From: a virus
Virus record (IMG/VR): IMGVR_UViG_3300027763_000123
Span: 1 to 37,112 of that record
Length of the DNA: 37,112 nucleotides
Direction: 5' to 3' (one strand)
A program made the position numbers and the translations under genes. Numbering within the stretch: position 1 is the stretch's first letter; every line of letters starts with the position of its first letter. Below are positions 2,467 to 11,739 of this stretch, piece by piece. The notes below the pieces were generated by a model. That model saw only the letters and a program-made list of their open reading frames with translations, ran no database searches and was not told the DNA's origin.

Positions 2467-4752
2467 CTATTTCACCAGCCGCAGTGCATCGGCCAGCGGC
2501 GAGCTTCCCGGCGATTCTACCAGGCGCCTAAGCTCTGATTTCGTCGCGCGCGCGAGTTCCGGCGCGCAATACACATGGCGGCGCGTGGAATACTCGGCGC
2601 TCGTGACGCGCCCACAGTCTAGCCATTGACACTCTAGCAGGGCATGGTGCAGGGCGGCGGCGGGGATCCGCTGTCCCGGCGCCAAGCCCGCGCGCAGGGT
2701 GAGATCGGCGCACAGGACATGAAACGGGGCGGTGATGGCGCCAGCCTCGAACGGGCCTTCACGGCCCCGTATCATATCGCACAGGATCGACTCGGCGGGC
2801 GATTGGCCATTGGATATCAGGCTGAGCTTGTACTCCGTCACTGGCGGCGCTGCGGCGGGGTTGAACGCCGATACATCGCGCCGGTAAAGCCATGCGGCGA
2901 TCGCTTCAAAACCACCCGATTCAAACCAGCGCCACATCCGCTGGCCGCGCTCCGGTGGATCCATGCGCGGCAGGTCAGACCACACACAGAACCAGCGCCT
3001 ATCCTGCGTATCCAGCACGATCGGCACCCGGTCGTTGGACGATGCGATGACCAGGCACCGGTTCACGACGTTGTAAGGGTGCTGCATTTTTTTATTAACC
3101 AGGATGGTTTCCGGCGGCGCGGCGATGATCGGTTTCAGGTGGTTCGCCAGCGCGCGGCGGTCTTTCGCTTCGCTTTCCCGCAGTTCGTGGAGGATTATCA
3201 CTTCACTCTCGTAGGCGTAACCCCATTGCGAGTTTATGGTGTTGTTGTTGAGTTCACCCTTGTTGCGCCCCTGACCGCACAACGCCCATAAAAACGGCGC
3301 CCAAAACGTGTCTTTTCCGCTACCTTGATACCCGGCGATCAGGACGGCGTGGTTTATCTTAACGCGCGGCTGTTGCAGCTTGCAGGCCATGACGTCGAAG
3401 ATATGCTCGCGGTCGGCGCGCTCGGGGATCAGGGCGGCGCAGTGGTCGAGCCAGAGTGAGATGTCAGCCTTCAGTTCGCGGTTGACCGGCGGGCGGGCGT
3501 CGCGCCACATGTTGCCAAACACGTCACCGTCACGCGTCACCAGCACGTCGTCGCCGGCGCTGTAGGTAATGCCGACCAAGGCGGGCGCGCCCATCGACTG
3601 GCGGTTTTCATCAAAGCAAATCGACGCCTCGACACGGCGGGACTTGCCCTTGGCGTCGGTGTGTATCGAGTGGCATGGGATGTGTCGGAATAGCGCGTTG
3701 AATACCGTGCGCGGGATGTGGTGGCGCTCCTGCATATCGAAAAACGCCTCGTCGGACAGCAAGTAGGCAAACCGGGTATACCACCCGGCCTTCTCAACCC
3801 GTCCGATCTCTTTGCGCTCGACGGCGGCGATCAACGCCCCGGCCTCGGTGCCGGCGCTGAACAGGTCACCGGGCTTGAGTTTAGCCAGCGTCGTGGCCAT
3901 CACGGCGGCGAGCAGTTCGTCGCGCAAACCCGTGGTGTGCTGCGGCCCACCCTGCTCGGCCACCCAGGCAAGGAAGCGGGCGCTGTTCCACTCGGCGCAA
4001 TGGGCATGAAGGCAGGTGTAGGCCCGGTTGACGGGCATGTAACGGCCTTCGATCTCGCCGGTGGTGTGCGCCTCGGCGTTAGGGCAGACCACGCCCCACC
4101 AGCCCGCTGCGTTGCCTTGGGCGGTCAGGTGACCGGCCTCGGAGAGCCACGCCAGCACGTCGTCGGTGCCGTCGTCGTCGAGCGCCACCCGGCGCAGGGC
4201 GGCGGTGTCGGACGGGTCAGGCGTCACGCCCAAGGCGGCGCAGACATGCTCGACGGTGAACTCGCGGTGCGGGTTAAACTCGGTCAGGACAGACACGAAG
4301 CGGTCGCGGCCCGGTTTGATGTTGATCGAGCCGGGGATGCGCCAGTTCCGCACGGCGTTGATGGCGCCCCCGTCGGTGTAACCGGCTTCGGCGAAGGCAC
4401 GCTCGGCAGCGGTAGCCACGGCCACCAAAACCTGCACGCTCAGCACCCAGGCCCACTGAAAATTACCCGGCGAGGTTTCGATCTTCCATGTCGGCTCCAG
4501 CGGTGGCACCTTGGACTTGGTGCCCACGTCGTCCACGGCAAGGAAGGTGACGTGTGTGCAGTTGCTGGTGCTGGCCGATATACCGCCGGTCATCCGGTCG
4601 AGGATAAACGAACCACTGCTGACATACCACGCCTTGCCCTCGGCGCGGGGCGCGTCGGGCAGTTGCGGTATCCACGCCTTGGTTTTCTGCTGGACAAAAA
4701 GAACAGTTTCGCCCTCGGGGGCCAAGCTGGTTACAAATTCAATAAAATCCAT
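2467..4752 (-). CDS. Bifunctional DNA primase-helicase
   Basis: A 761-residue replication protein. The N-terminal part looks like a RepB-type primase: 'L-A-V-D-D-V-G-T-K' at 71-79 supplies acidic residues, and 'T-W-K-I-E-T-S-P-G-N-F-Q-W' at 88-100 is the family signature. A Cys/His cluster at about 223-252 (Cys223, Cys247, His249, Cys252) suggests a zinc element. The C-terminal half is an SF3/D5-like helicase (DUF5906-type) with Walker A 'G-Y-Q-G-S-G-K-D-T' at 474-482, a Walker B-like 'E-V-I-I-L-H-E-L' near 517-524 and a sensor stretch near 565-588. It would unwind the fork and prime synthesis for the polymerase encoded just upstream. The frame is open to 4884, but the ATG at 4752 has an AGGAGA ribosome site. 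It is the last gene of the operon. Confidence 0.9.
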   Translation of the reverse strand: MDFIEFVTSLAPEGETVLFVQQKTKAWIPQLPDAPRAEGKAWYVSSGSFILDRMTGGISASTSNCTHVTFLAVDDVGTKSKVPPLEPTWKIETSPGNFQWAWVLSVQVLVAVATAAERAFAEAGYTDGGAINAVRNWRIPGSINIKPGRDRFVSVLTEFNPHREFTVEHVCAALGVTPDPSDTAALRRVALDDDGTDDVLAWLSEAGHLTAQGNAAGWWGVVCPNAEAHTTGEIEGRYMPVNRAYTCLHAHCAEWNSARFLAWVAEQGGPQHTTGLRDELLAAVMATTLAKLKPGDLFSAGTEAGALIAAVERKEIGRVEKAGWYTRFAYLLSDEAFFDMQERHHIPRTVFNALFRHIPCHSIHTDAKGKSRRVEASICFDENRQSMGAPALVGITYSAGDDVLVTRDGDVFGNMWRDARPPVNRELKADISLWLDHCAALIPERADREHIFDVMACKLQQPRVKINHAVLIAGYQGSGKDTFWAPFLWALCGQGRNKGELNNNTINSQWGYAYESEVIILHELRESEAKDRRALANHLKPIIAAPPETILVNKKMQHPYNVVNRCLVIASSNDRVPIVLDTQDRRWFCVWSDLPRMDPPERGQRMWRWFESGGFEAIAAWLYRRDVSAFNPAAAPPVTEYKLSLISNGQSPAESILCDMIRGREGPFEAGAITAPFHVLCADLTLRAGLAPGQRIPAAALHHALLECQWLDCGRVTSAEYSTRRHVYCAPELARATKSELRRLVESPGSSPLADALRLVK

Positions 4753-4823
4753 GTTATAGTCTCTCCTGTTGTGGTGGTTGTTTTGGCGGCTCACGGTCAC
4801 TCCCCCGTGGGCCGTCCCTTTAT

Positions 4824-6755
4824 CTACTTGCCGTATCGAGTCATAATCTTGATCTCGACGCCCAACGGCAGACCAGCGGCCCACTCATCCGGCGTACACA
4901 TCACACTACGCATCCGCGCTACTGTTGCCTCGGCCATGCGCTCGGGACACTCAACAACAATTTCATCGTGGATATGCAGAATCACGTCCTCTAGTTGGCG
5001 CAGCGCGCCGCGCAATATATCGTTCGCGGTTGCTTGGGTAGCGTTTTCAACGGCCAGACCGCGCCATAGACGGGCGCGCGGCCACTCGGTCGCATCGGCG
5101 GCGGGCTTCCAGGATGCCTTTAGGTAGGACACCCCGTCGTTGTCGAGCTTGGCGAACGGGTAGCATAGCACTCGACCCGACGGCAGGGAATACCAAAGGT
5201 GCTGACCATCATATAAATAACACACCCGGCCAGCATGGCACTCATGCCCCTTGTGGCGCAAGGCGCGAGTGTAGGCGGCTTCCAGGTCTTGACCGTGCTT
5301 CATCGCCCAAGGATTAGCACGGCGCCAGGTCGAAATAGCGCGGGCGATCTCACCTTCGGTCATCTGCACACCGTAGACGCGCCCGAAAGTCTCGAACGAG
5401 CCAGGCCCACCGAGGAAACCTAGCGCGAGTTCCTGCACCTTGCCGACCTGCCGCTGCATGTCGGTCACGTCGTTGTAGGCCACGCCGAACGTCGAGGTCG
5501 CGTTGACCTTGTAGGGGTCGAGGCCGGAACGGAACACGTCCAGCTTGGCCTCGCCGGCGGGGCAGTTGGACAACCACGGGTTCACACGGCCTTCAATCGC
5601 CGCCCAGTCGGCCACGACCAGCACGTTACCCGGCGCCGGGATGAGCGCCGGGCGTAGCATCCCCTTTAGAACGTCCGTCACGCGCTTACCGTATTCTGGC
5701 ACAATTTGATGCCCGCGCACTATCGCTTGGCGCACGGCGAAGGGGTCTTTTGCGGTCTTGCGCGTCAGGTTGTGGATCTGCGCGCCATAACTGGCAGCTC
5801 TACCTGTGGCGCTGCCGCCAGCAAACACGAACGCACCACGCACCCGGTCGTCCTCAATGTCAGCAAGCGCGGCCAGCCGCTTGAACTTGGCAACACTGGA
5901 CGCCCACAGGTCATCGGCGCATTGGACGACCTCGGCCACGTCGGGCGGCACCTCGTCGGGGCCGAGCGTGAGCAGGTTGGCGCGCACCGATTTGTCGATC
6001 GAATACTTCTCACCTGTCCACATCAGCTTGACGGCCTCGGGGCCGACGCGAGCTTGCACCCACTGCCGCATTCGGGGCGAGCGCACACTGGTGATCTCAC
6101 CCTTGGACACCTCGCGCACGATATCTTGTATCTCGATTAACTCGGCCTCGGCGTAGCCTATCGCAGCGCCGCAAAGATCGGTATCGACCATCACGCCACG
6201 GTCGTTGATGCGCTCGCTGACGTGGTAGTCGGCCAGTTCTTGACCGGACAACGGGCGCAGGGACTGGCTGATGGCGCGCATAGCGCGCACGTCCTGCTCG
6301 CAGTAGGCCACCATCTCGGCCATCAGCGTCGGATCGTCGTTGAAGGTGCCGTCCTTGCGCGGGATGCAGAGCAACCGGATCAATGCCGAGCCACGGTGAT
6401 CCTTCTTCATCTTGCTGCTGACGGCGCGGCCTACATCCTCCAAGCTGCCGGGCAGGCAGTTAGCGCGGGCCTGCGCGGCGGTGCAGTAGAACTGCTCTAA
6501 TGGCGGCTCAACTAAGCCAAGGGTAGGACACACGACATACCAAAAGACAAGCCGCTCGAAAGCGGCGTTGTGGGCCATGATCGTATGGCCAGCAATGTCA
6601 GGGAACGGCATACCCGGCAACCAGGTAGCCACCTCGCCATCATCGAAGGCGTAGGACATGCACAGCACCTCGGTGCTGGCATCCTGCGCGTAGTTATAAA
6701 CGCCGCGACTAAGTAAGTCGCAGCGTGATCGTGTCTCAAAATCGAGCCAGATCAC
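4824..6755 (-). CDS. Phage family A DNA polymerase with 3'-5' exonuclease
   Basis: A 643-residue replicative polymerase of the PolA type. The exonuclease domain begins at the N-terminus: Exo I 'L-D-F-E-T' with Asp5 and Glu7, Exo II 'A-H-N-A-A-F-E' near 61-67, and Exo III 'Y-C-E-Q-D' at 151-155. The polymerase domain shows motif A 'V-A-D-W-A-A-I-E-G-R-V' at 381-391 (metal ligand Asp383), the O-helix 'R-Q-V-G-K-V-Q-E-L-A-L-G-F' at about 435-447, and motif C 'H-I-H-D-E-I-V' at 594-600 (Asp597). All key residues are present, so it should be active. The start is GTG at 6755, placed 8 bases after an AGGAG that overlaps the stop codon of the upstream gene. Length is close to T7-like polymerases. Confidence 0.95.
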   Translation of the reverse strand: MIWLDFETRSRCDLLSRGVYNYAQDASTEVLCMSYAFDDGEVATWLPGMPFPDIAGHTIMAHNAAFERLVFWYVVCPTLGLVEPPLEQFYCTAAQARANCLPGSLEDVGRAVSSKMKKDHRGSALIRLLCIPRKDGTFNDDPTLMAEMVAYCEQDVRAMRAISQSLRPLSGQELADYHVSERINDRGVMVDTDLCGAAIGYAEAELIEIQDIVREVSKGEITSVRSPRMRQWVQARVGPEAVKLMWTGEKYSIDKSVRANLLTLGPDEVPPDVAEVVQCADDLWASSVAKFKRLAALADIEDDRVRGAFVFAGGSATGRAASYGAQIHNLTRKTAKDPFAVRQAIVRGHQIVPEYGKRVTDVLKGMLRPALIPAPGNVLVVADWAAIEGRVNPWLSNCPAGEAKLDVFRSGLDPYKVNATSTFGVAYNDVTDMQRQVGKVQELALGFLGGPGSFETFGRVYGVQMTEGEIARAISTWRRANPWAMKHGQDLEAAYTRALRHKGHECHAGRVCYLYDGQHLWYSLPSGRVLCYPFAKLDNDGVSYLKASWKPAADATEWPRARLWRGLAVENATQATANDILRGALRQLEDVILHIHDEIVVECPERMAEATVARMRSVMCTPDEWAAGLPLGVEIKIMTRYGK

Positions 6756-8932: not shown

Positions 8933-9217
8933 ATGATACTAGAACGTGACATTGAACGCTACCTTGTGCGCCGCACCATTGAGCACGGTGGCGTGGCGTA
9001 CAAGTGGGTGTCACCGGGGCGTGTCGGTGTGGCCGACCGCATCGTGCTGCTGCCTGGTGGCGTGGTGTGGTTCGTGGAACTCAAGACCGCAACGGGCAGA
9101 CTCTCGCCGTGGCAGAAGCTGTTCGCGGCGGAAATGGCGCGGCTGGAATTGAATTACATTGTAATTAGATCAAAGGAGGAAGTTGATGGATTCATTAAAA
9201 AAGCAAGTGGACGGTGA
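8933..9217 (+). CDS. VRR-NUC domain nuclease
   Basis: The 94 residues form a minimal VRR-NUC domain, a PD-(D/E)XK fold found in Holliday-junction resolvase-like and FAN1-type nucleases. Visible residues are Glu4, 'V-A-D-R-I' with Asp35, 'F-V-E-L-K' with Glu49 and Lys51, and the downstream 'G-R-L-S-P-W-Q' with Gln61. All catalytic positions are kept. In phages, stand-alone VRR-NUC proteins probably resolve branched DNA before packaging; that role here is an inference. It is the first gene of the second rightward operon, beginning right behind the operator-like repeat at 8897-8921, and its end overlaps the start of the next gene. Confidence 0.93.
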   Translation: MILERDIERYLVRRTIEHGGVAYKWVSPGRVGVADRIVLLPGGVVWFVELKTATGRLSPWQKLFAAEMARLELNYIVIRSKEEVDGFIKKASGR

Positions 9218-9392
9218 CCACTATAAAGACATGCCGATCCAGCCTGTGCAGTATATCCACAGCAACGGCATTGGATATTTTGAAGGAAACGTAATCAAAT
9301 ACGTTAGCCGTTGGCGCGCTAAGAACGGCATAGCCGATCTGGAGAAGGCCAAGCACTACATCGAGCTGCTGATTGAGCTGGAGTCACAGTGA
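9186..9392 (+). CDS. DUF3310 family protein
   Basis: A 68-residue protein with the full DUF3310 signature: 'V-D-G-D-H-Y' at about 8-13, 'P-I-Q-P-V-Q-Y' at 17-23, and 'N-V-I-K-Y-V-S-R-W' plus 'K-N-G-I-A-D-L-E-K-A-K-H-Y-I' in the second half. The family is common in phages, often beside nucleotide or DNA-modification genes, and has no firm function. The ATG at 9186 is preferred over an adjacent upstream TTG because GGAGG lies about 7 bases before it. It overlaps the VRR-NUC gene by 32 bases and ends in a GTGA overlap with the methyltransferase. Confidence 0.9.
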   Translation: MDSLKKQVDGDHYKDMPIQPVQYIHSNGIGYFEGNVIKYVSRWRAKNGIADLEKAKHYIELLIELESQ

Positions 9393-10403
9393 ACTATTAC
9401 AACGAGTTTGACCCGTATGCCGCGCAGTGGCTACGCAATCTGATTGAAGCGGGGCATATTCCCCAAGGTGAAGTAGACACAAGGAGCGTCAAGGATGTTA
9501 GAGCCAGTGACCTTACCGGATTTGTTCAATGCCATTTCTTTGCCGGTCTTGGTGGTTGGAGCCACGCCCTGCGCCTTGCCGGATGGCCCGACGACCGACC
9601 TGTTTGGACGGGCAGTTGCCCCTGCCAACCCTTCAGCGCAGCCGGTGCAGGGGGGGGGCGTTACAGACGAGCGCCATCTCTGGCCTGTCTGGTTCAATCT
9701 TATCCGCGAGTGCCGCCCTGGAGTCGTCTTTGGTGAGCAAGTTGAAGCAGCGGTTAAGCACGGATGGCTCGATCTTGTTCAATCTGATTTGGAAAGTGAA
9801 GGCTATGCCTGCGGGGCGGCAGGTATACCGGCTGCGGGCGTAGGCGCGCCGCACATTAGACAACGACTGTGGTTCGTGGCCGACGCCAATAGTGGGCGAC
9901 ACGACGGGTGGGCCACGGCCACCGGACGACAAGCGGGGGCCAGCGCCAGGGTTGCAAGCAGCAGCGCATCTGACCAGTTGGCCGACAGCCAGCGCGAGGG
10001 ATTGGAAGGATACGTCAGGGATGAGCGAAACCGGGACGAACCCAGACGGCTCAACGCGCAGCAGGCTGGATCAGTTGCCCCGAGTAGTGGGGTTGGTAGC
10101 TTGGGCAACACCACAAGCATCGGACGAAAAATGGCGGTATTCGACGGCAGCAGCAGCAACGCGTCGGCAGGAGTCGGGCAAACAGATGTGCGTGGAGGCC
10201 GAGGCGCTTCTAGTCCAAGCAACGGATTCTGGTCTGACTGCGATTGGCTCCCCTGCCGCGACGGAAAAGCCCGGCCAGTTGAACCCGGCACATTCCCGCT
10301 GGCTCATGGGGTATCCGCCAGAGTGGGACGCCTGCGCGCCTACGGCAATGCCATCGTCCCGCAAGTCGCGCAAGCCTTCATAGAGGCGTATCTTGAAACT
10401 TAG
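9389..10403 (+). CDS. DNA (cytosine-5)-methyltransferase, frameshifted at a G9 tract
   Basis: Starting at GTG 9389, the first frame gives motif I 'F-A-G-L-G-G' (51-56) and motif IV 'S-C-P-C-Q-P-F' with catalytic Cys79. At the run of nine Gs (9650-9658) this frame goes wrong and stops at 9736. The frame one base on continues exactly where expected: 'T-D-E-R-H-L-W-P-V-W', motif VI-like 'F-G-E-Q-V', motif VIII 'R-Q-R-L-W-F-V-A', and motif X 'Y-G-N-A-I-V-P-Q' ending at 10403. Removing one G restores a single protein of about 337 residues with all motifs. As written it is split; sequencing error, true mutation, slippage or phase variation are all possible. It would modify phage DNA, perhaps against host restriction. 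A GGAG precedes the GTG. Confidence 0.88.
9495..10383 (+). pseudogene. Second overlapping frame inside the methyltransferase gene, broken by the same G9 tract and a TAG
   Basis: An ATG at 9495 begins 'M-L-E-P-V-T-L-P-D-L-F-N-A-I-S-L-P', in a different frame from the methyltransferase. At the G9 tract it needs the same one-base correction. It then reads 'L-V-S-K-L-K-Q-R-L-S-T-D-G-S', a TAG at 9841-9843, then 'D-N-D-C-G-S-W-P-T-P', 'A-R-D-W-K-D' and 'L-N-P-A-H-S-R-W-L-M-G-Y-P-P-E-W-D', ending at 10383. From memory these strings match a widespread phage protein family often annotated as methyltransferase or hypothetical, and not noise. I read it as an overprinted gene, damaged here. The GC-rich region also opens other shadow frames, so openness alone is not proof. 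Confidence 0.5.
9650..9658 (+). repeat. Homopolymer of nine Gs at the methyltransferase frameshift
   Basis: Nine consecutive Gs are the only place where the methyltransferase frame can switch with all conserved sequence retained on both sides. Poly-G tracts of this length are prone to slippage in replication and to assembly error. A tract of eight Gs would restore both overlapping frames together. Confidence 0.9.
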
Positions 10404-11739
10404 ACCTTACCAAGAGACAGCCGCCGACTTCCTCTACGAGCGGGACAGGGCGATGATCCTCGCACCCGTCGGCGCGGGCAAGACCGCCATCACGCTCACC
10501 GCGATGCGCGACATGCTGGCAGCGGGCGTGGTGCAGCGGTTCCTGGTCATCGCCCCCAAGCGTGTGGCCGTCAGTGTCTGGCCGGCAGAGGCCAAGCTGT
10601 GGGCGCCGGGGCTGTCCTTGTCGGTTGTCATCGGCACACCGACGCAGCGGGTCAAGGCGCTACAGGCCAACGTGCAGGTGGTGGTCGCTACCTACGACAA
10701 CCTGCAATGGCTGGCAGAGCAGCAGCTACGCTTTGACGGCGTGGTGTTCGACGAGCTAACGCGGCTCAAGAACCCCGCTGGACGGGCCAAACGCAAGGGG
10801 CTAAAGCCTGGCGAAAAAGCAAAACCAAAAAAAGGCGCGCGGGCGTTTGCGTTGGACAGCATTTTACCAATGATGAAAATCCGGTGGGGGCTGACCGGCA
10901 GCTTCACCAGCAACGGGCTGGAGGACGTATTTGGCCAGTGCAAGGTGATCGACCAGACGCTGCTAGGCCGCGCCAAGGGCGCGTTCCTGCAACAGTATTT
11001 CCATTGCATCAACCGGGATTTTGGTGATTGGACGCCCGCTGCCGGCGCGCTGGAGCAGGTGATGGCGCGCATTAAACCGGCCACCTTCGTCTTGGACGCT
11101 GGCGATTACAAGGACAAGCTGCCGCCGCTGCATACGGTGGCGATGCAGTGCAGCATGGAAATGACGGAATACAAGACCATGAAAAAGCACTTTGTAGTGC
11201 AGTTCCCCGACGCTCAAGCCGTTGCGGCCAACGCGGGTGTGGTGACCAGCAAATTGCAACAGATGGCGTCGGGCTTTGTCTACGCCGAGGGCAAGGCAAC
11301 GAAGTGGCTGTCAGACCACAAATTCGAGGTGCTGGACGATCTGCTGGCCGAGAACCAGCACGCCAACACGATCGTCGCTTACCAGTATCAGGCCGAGCTG
11401 GCCGAGTTGCAGCGCCGCTATCCCGGCGCCGTGACGCTGGACGAGCCGAACGCCATCGACCGCTGGAACGCCGGTAAGGTCAAGCTGCTGCTGGCGCACC
11501 CCAAATCCGCTGGCCACGGTCTGAACCTGCAACACGGTGGCTGTCACATGGTGTTCCTGTCGCTACCGTGGTCGCTGGAACTCTACGAACAGACCATCGG
11601 ACGGTTGCACCGCAGCGGCCAGCGGCATGACGTGTGGGTCTACGTCCTGCTGACCAAGGACACGGTAGATGAGAAGATTTACGCAGCACTGCACGAGAAG
11701 AAGTCCGTATCACAACTAGCCATGGAGGCTTTGCAATGA
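10393..11739 (+). CDS. SNF2-family DNA-dependent ATPase / helicase-like protein
   Basis: A 448-residue superfamily 2 protein. Motifs in order: a Q-like start 'L-R-P-Y-Q' (3-7), Walker A 'A-P-V-G-A-G-K-T' (24-31), motif Ia 'L-V-I-A-P-K-R-V', Walker B 'V-F-D-E-L-T' with Asp120 and Glu121, motif III-like 'L-T-G-S-F', then motif V 'S-A-G-H-G-L-N-L-Q' and motif VI 'Q-T-I-G-R-L-H-R-S-G-Q'. Snf2 proteins move along double-stranded DNA instead of unwinding it fully; phage members probably remodel protein-DNA complexes or assist recombination. The start is a TTG at 10393 overlapping the methyltransferase end, with GAGG just upstream; the first ATG (10453) would remove the Q-like motif. It ends in an ATGA overlap with the next gene. 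Confidence 0.93.
   Translation: MKLRPYQETAADFLYERDRAMILAPVGAGKTAITLTAMRDMLAAGVVQRFLVIAPKRVAVSVWPAEAKLWAPGLSLSVVIGTPTQRVKALQANVQVVVATYDNLQWLAEQQLRFDGVVFDELTRLKNPAGRAKRKGLKPGEKAKPKKGARAFALDSILPMMKIRWGLTGSFTSNGLEDVFGQCKVIDQTLLGRAKGAFLQQYFHCINRDFGDWTPAAGALEQVMARIKPATFVLDAGDYKDKLPPLHTVAMQCSMEMTEYKTMKKHFVVQFPDAQAVAANAGVVTSKLQQMASGFVYAEGKATKWLSDHKFEVLDDLLAENQHANTIVAYQYQAELAELQRRYPGAVTLDEPNAIDRWNAGKVKLLLAHPKSAGHGLNLQHGGCHMVFLSLPWSLELYEQTIGRLHRSGQRHDVWVYVLLTKDTVDEKIYAALHEKKSVSQLAMEALQ

Follow-up and report, generated by a model that had tools for sequence, protein, structure and literature searches.

The viral contig analyzed here (IMG/VR record IMGVR_UViG_3300027763_000123; 37,112 bases, referred to below as the window) carries a C5-methyltransferase gene, frame A, whose DNA is also read in a second frame, frame B, as another protein. 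This overlap is real and widespread, and both A and B are maintained under purifying selection. The comparisons described below make it probable that the locus specifies a two-subunit C5-methyltransferase resembling M.EcoHK31I, with B as the subunit contributing motif IX and target recognition. In the arrangement that we propose, the large catalytic domain, bearing motifs I-VIII and X, would come from A. B lies +1 to A, and its translation would begin within A at a ribosome-binding site and ATG of its own. The product, a second protein, would combine a conserved core with a motif IX-like segment and WPTP modules in varying number. Folding with A in trans, it would form the small domain that recognizes the target, similar to the way in which M.EcoHK31I obtains motif IX from its small polypeptide. 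The two products would be expected to associate physically, and both would be needed for methylation.

Frame A (phrog_363) spans 9389-10403, and frame B (phrog_1008/31772) begins at an ATG at 9495; both shift reading frame where nine G residues follow one another (9650-9658), and B additionally contains a TAG (Table 1). The ORF at 9389-9736 carries the methyltransferase strings AGLGGW and PCQPFS. A PF00145-type catalytic domain with motifs I, IV (PCQ), VI, VIII, and X is present in frame A, which also gave a profile match to M.HhaI; in the window, this domain is obtained only across the shift at the G-run. Beyond the run, A matches PF00145 (2.7e-5) and phrog_363 (2.8e-44), and the last part of B matches phrog_31772 (1.3e-20) and phrog_1008 (7e-14). 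Because both frames shift at the nine-G run, the ORF at 9495-10403 is a chimera that joins the N-terminus of B to the C-terminus of A. At the edges of the locus, the 3′ end of a DUF3310 gene (9183-9392) overlaps the methyltransferase start, and a SNF2/DEAD helicase ORF (10393-11739) overlaps the final 11 bases.

Table 1. Features of the overlapping genes in the window
Feature	Position	Strand	Remarks
Frame A part 1, C5-methyltransferase N-terminus (AGLGGW, PCQPFS)	9389..9649	+	frame 2, GTG start; phrog_363 6e-36
AAGGAG, Shine-Dalgarno-like site of B	9481..9486	+	8 nt 5′ of the B ATG; kept in relatives
Frame B part 1, ATG and N-terminus (LPDLFNAISLP)	9495..9649	+	frame 3; B profile 20 bits
Nine-G run	9650..9658	+	eight G would leave both frames unbroken
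Frame A part 2, GEQV, APHIRQR, and motif X RLRAYGNAIVP (~10329-10361)	9659..10403	+	frame 3
Frame B part 2, TSAISGL...STDGSILFNLIWK	9659..9840	+	frame 1; phrog_1008 0.00045, B profile 59 bits
TAG stop breaking frame B	9841..9843	+	read in the window sequence
Frame B part 3, WPTP modules (CGSWPTP 9868-9888) and motif IX-like segment	9844..10383	+	frame 1
Motif IX-like segment of B, QLNPAHSRWLMGYPPEWD; A reads the same bases as PVEPGTFPLAHGVSARVG	10276..10329	+	

The first-pass annotation had read the strings of the second family from the single frame that starts at 9495 and had placed the methyltransferase motifs in the next frame. Every quoted string is present, but they are spread over two frames: LPDLFNAISLP does belong to the ORF that opens at ATG 9495 (position mod 3 = 0), whereas CGSWPTP (9868-9888), ARDWKD, and HSRWLMGYPPEWD (within 10276-10329) are read in the mod 3 = 1 frame, in the open stretch 9844-10383 past the TAG. 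The methyltransferase strings GEQV, APHIRQR, and RLRAYGNAIVP sit in the ORF 9495-10403, the very frame that had been credited to the second family. The two genes had also been implied to be intact, and both are broken in the window copy. The central proposal of that annotation, that two real families are dual-coded over nearly the whole gene, is upheld far beyond chance by stop counts, start signals, and dN/dS.

We counted stops in the second frame and obtained the expected number by shuffling synonymous codons within each gene. A first set of loci was retrieved with a profile of A only, from which the best 80 of 569 matches were kept, giving 74 nonredundant loci. Across these A-selected loci, the +1 frame contained 0 stops versus 185 expected when counted from codon 61 of A to 20 codons before the end of A; the +2 frame contained 872, and each antisense frame between 243 and 495. 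A second set of 73 loci was found with a DNA pattern for EWLMGFP, and hence selected for the B motif; it contained 10 stops versus 181 expected, with 561 in the +2 frame. In a distant clade of A (70 loci, 40-64% G+C), there were 6 stops versus 314 expected, and 952 in the +2 frame. At the 3839 A codons that had a synonymous option stopping B, this option was used 8 times versus 488 expected. Stops in frame B are therefore not scattered through the homologs, as might be supposed if the second frame were free to change, but fall far below expectation. When we individually read 18 loci missed by the strict motif pattern, the +1 frame was still open and the motif IX-like segments had diverged. Since the A profile itself came from loci with an open B, and only the best 80 of 569 matches were kept, retrieval bias was a possible source of this openness; the distant clade, with its 6 versus 314 stops, argues against it. 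The synonymous shuffles and loci at 40-50% G+C likewise argue against an artifact of G+C content.

Start signals within A were similarly enriched over the synonymous expectation. A Shine-Dalgarno-like site followed by an ATG in frame B was present at 108 of 157 loci, compared to 18.5 under shuffling, and strong sites of this kind numbered 58 versus 2.7 expected, with none in the +2 frame. At the level of single codons, AGG at a conserved arginine was enriched about five times (p = 2e-25), as was GAT, which creates the B ATG (p = 2e-24). For loci of the distant clade, the ORF of B opens 4 nt past the start of A.

Third-position diversity in A was 0.58 before B, dropped to 0.20-0.37 over the B cores, and was 0.56 past the end of B; early in the linker, the third position of B was more variable than that of A. 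Overlap-aware dN/dS on 29 disjoint pairs gave a dSN/dSS of 0.33 (0.27-0.41) and a dNN/dNS of 0.72 (0.58-0.85) for B, and a dNS/dSS of 0.28 (0.22-0.35) and a dNN/dSN of 0.62 (0.52-0.70) for A, where the dSS ratios are rough because the dSS class is small (146 sites). Purifying selection is thus seen in each frame, and conservation of the methyltransferase frame does not explain that of the second. By region, dSN/dSS for B was 2.2 ahead of the B start, which serves as a negative control, and 0.30, 0.27, and 0.42 along B; constraint on B was strongest in the motif IX-like segment (0.09). Within the linker, A was near neutral (dNN/dSN 0.98, 0.88-1.08) and B was constrained, suggesting that B may be the main determinant of specificity.

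In two loci (L282 and L369), the C-terminus of B is fused in frame behind A, so that B-like sequence is found there as an ordinary protein outside any overlap. Over the A regions of these two loci, the +1 frame contained 17 and 14 stops, compared to 17.4 and 15.5 by shuffling, while in the overlapping relatives BUCT711, PS-1, and Marin (L370-L372) B is open across almost all of A. In these cases, then, the second frame is open where B is not supplied elsewhere. Overprinted genes seldom come with an internal control such as these in-frame fusions: among the cases seen, relaxation of the overlap coincides exactly with B being encoded elsewhere. Another layout was found in L321, where an A-like gene (4131-4694) stops after motif VIII and an overlapping B (4348-5601) holds, in one frame and in the usual order, the WPTP modules, the motif IX-like segment, and RLRCLGNAVVPQ (motif X). 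We also noted a locus whose A frame continues without a break into B at its motif IX-like segment, as though a single indel had merged the frames (L417:1501-2397), a B ORF of 472 codons in Edwardsiella phage eiAU that stays open in one frame into a downstream N6-adenine methyltransferase gene (L002:1614-3032), and a tandem pair of overprinted A/B units (L283:133-1952).

Several observations bear on what B might do. The protein carries LNPxxxEWLMGFPxGW, which matches the motif IX consensus and has no counterpart in A, together with WPTP modules that vary in number; in the distant clade, A has almost no linker between motifs VIII and X. When the modeled A part of L282 was compared to M.HhaI (residues 12-327), 204 residues aligned (Z 18.8, rmsd 3.9), which leaves about a hundred HhaI residues without a partner. 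By sequence order, the small domain of M.HhaI, with its target recognition domain (TRD) and motif IX, falls in the stretch unmatched by A. The B-like C-terminus of the same model is unreliable, being a region without alignment rows. A profile of the motif IX-like segment found no match among PDB sequences, so its identity with motif IX is argued from the consensus pattern and from position. Similarly, a profile of B returned nothing useful from PDB, Pfam, or NCBIfam. A model of B alone (alignment A4, 147 sequences) was poor, with a pLDDT of 63 and a pTM of 0.31; a hairpin and two helices, one of them the motif IX helix, were all that stood out, and a fold search of PDB with this model gave nothing usable. 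Taken together, the gap in A relative to HhaI, the motif IX-like segment, the WPTP modules, and the order of elements in L321 make B look like the small domain of the enzyme. We also noticed that the codons for WPTP (window 9877-9888 and other modules) contain TGGCC, which is close to the M.EcoHK31I target YGGCCR, possibly by coincidence.

We considered whether B could be a real protein that is no part of a methyltransferase, such as a regulator or an anti-restriction factor overprinted on A. This would suit the lack of a Pfam or NCBIfam family and of a fold match for B, and nothing in the fusions L282 and L369 corresponds to the N-terminal half of B. We nevertheless judge it unlikely, given that every intact A recovered with the A profile (best 80 of 569) came with B, that the C-terminus of B is fused to A in those same two loci, and that B and motif X share one frame in L321. 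It is still harder to maintain that B lacks its own start and is reached from A by programmed frameshifting or slippage, yielding an A-B transframe protein. The G-tracts of the window and its freshwater relatives, and the A frame of L417 leading directly to the motif IX-like segment of B, might point that way; however, the Shine-Dalgarno site and ATG in frame B are under selection, the B ORF of the distant clade opens just past the start of A, and most loci have no G-tract at this site, which together make a frameshift origin very improbable.

That B is noncoding, with its openness a by-product of the composition and codon use of A, can almost be dismissed. The high G+C of the window family and the length of some antisense ORFs would be compatible with it, but it is contradicted by the synonymous shuffles, the +2 and antisense counts, the loci at 40-50% G+C, the selection on the start site, the regional dN/dS, and the fusion controls. 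We therefore retain the two-subunit methyltransferase as the preferred reading. A bolder form of it would place the entire TRD, as tandem WPTP modules, in B, so that B alone would set specificity in a large group of phages, the A linker would be a passive by-product, and a single G-tract slip would switch both subunits in some freshwater phages; we put this forward tentatively, as something that may well prove to claim too much.

As read in this virus, both subunits are off, owing to one extra G that affects both frames and to the TAG that affects B only. In the relatives L166 and L191, which have eight G, each family occupies one unbroken frame. The tract at this site is 7 long in L167, 8 in L166, L191, L200, L218, and L231, and 9 in the window, L165, L193, L195, and L198, while most loci have no G-tract here. 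Among these, L165 is a near-identical contig (99.84% over 3645 nt, no gaps) that has nine G too. The pattern of tract lengths fits a length-variable switch, and it also fits homopolymer error or decay. For the window copy, simultaneous shutdown of both subunits by such a switch (phase variation), as opposed to assembly error or decay, is favored by the occurrence of lengths 7, 8, and 9 at one site with conserved flanks, by the recurrence of nine G in L165, L193, L195, and L198, and by the absence of any other indel between the window and L165 across the 3645 nt. Nevertheless, homopolymer error or shared sampling may account for the tract; the switch also leaves the TAG in B unexplained, and some relatives have two tracts simultaneously off. 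We consider it doubtful that the window represents such a switch. In the freshwater relatives, a second G-tract is present in the linker and is out of phase in several, with both frames affected together.

Both frames were found in phages of Burkholderia, Edwardsiella, Pseudomonas, Salmonella (epsilon15), Klebsiella, Paenibacillus, and Lacticaseibacillus, and also on Enterobacter and Leptospira plasmids; genes of this kind are common in phages, tblastn with the C-terminus of the window B returning 195 phage records. In the PHROG library, A corresponds to 363 and B to 1008, 31772, 26627, 27243, and 35493, and the library is silent on 363 and the B families being two frames of the same DNA. PHROGs 1008 and 31772 are labeled "DNA methyltransferase," the label of phrog_363 and thus of the other frame, which agrees with an early suspicion that databases hold mislabeled proteins here; 26627, 27243, and 35493 are labeled unknown. 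Escherichia phage K1ind2 annotates both frames, as a C-specific methylase and an Mte8-like protein. Elsewhere, such loci are usually annotated as a single protein, and frame B is unannotated or called "Mte8-like." Judging from these sequence relationships, a phage family that has been left unannotated or mislabeled is probably the missing DNA-recognition subunit of the enzyme. If B proves essential, a methyltransferase produced from only the annotated frame, or from a gene recoded for synthesis, would lack activity. Predictions of specificity would then draw on the wrong frame, and a function would become available for several PHROG families.

Among known systems, M.EcoHK31I appears closest to the locus. 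In the 1995 paper on this enzyme, the small polypeptide is reportedly read in another frame within the large gene, a feature that would be shared by B, which is read from a different frame inside A. As described in PMC3404938, M.EcoHK31I is a two-polypeptide C5-methyltransferase with the target YGGCCR (Lee, Kam and Shaw 1995), in which the large polypeptide has motifs I-VIII and X and the small polypeptide has motif IX. By that description, A, with motifs I-VIII and X, is like the large polypeptide, and B, with the motif IX-like segment, would be like the small one. In the same account, the TRD predicted for M.EcoHK31I belongs to the large subunit and not the small one, which speaks against our reading; here, B bears the variable WPTP modules and the constraint on the linker favors B over A as the recognition part. 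Unlike M.EcoHK31I, moreover, the present arrangement is phage-wide, and the overlap takes in approximately the whole gene, from 4 nt past the A start in the distant clade.

M.AquI, a split C5-methyltransferase described in that source as one enzyme made of two polypeptides (PMC3404938), has motifs I-VIII and IX-X on separate genes, a layout shared here by L321 only; the window differs in retaining motif X within A and in the nearly full overlap of its two genes. The ShiLan element, an out-of-frame HNH endonuclease within an actinophage methylase (PMC11855218), is a mobile insertion, whereas B spans conserved motifs of the methyltransferase itself. Our literature search, in a library with few subscription journals, turned up M.EcoHK31I and M.AquI as precedents and no description of a phage-wide overlap. 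The two-subunit architecture was already known, while the phage-wide spread, the near-total overlap, and the signs of recognition in B look new.
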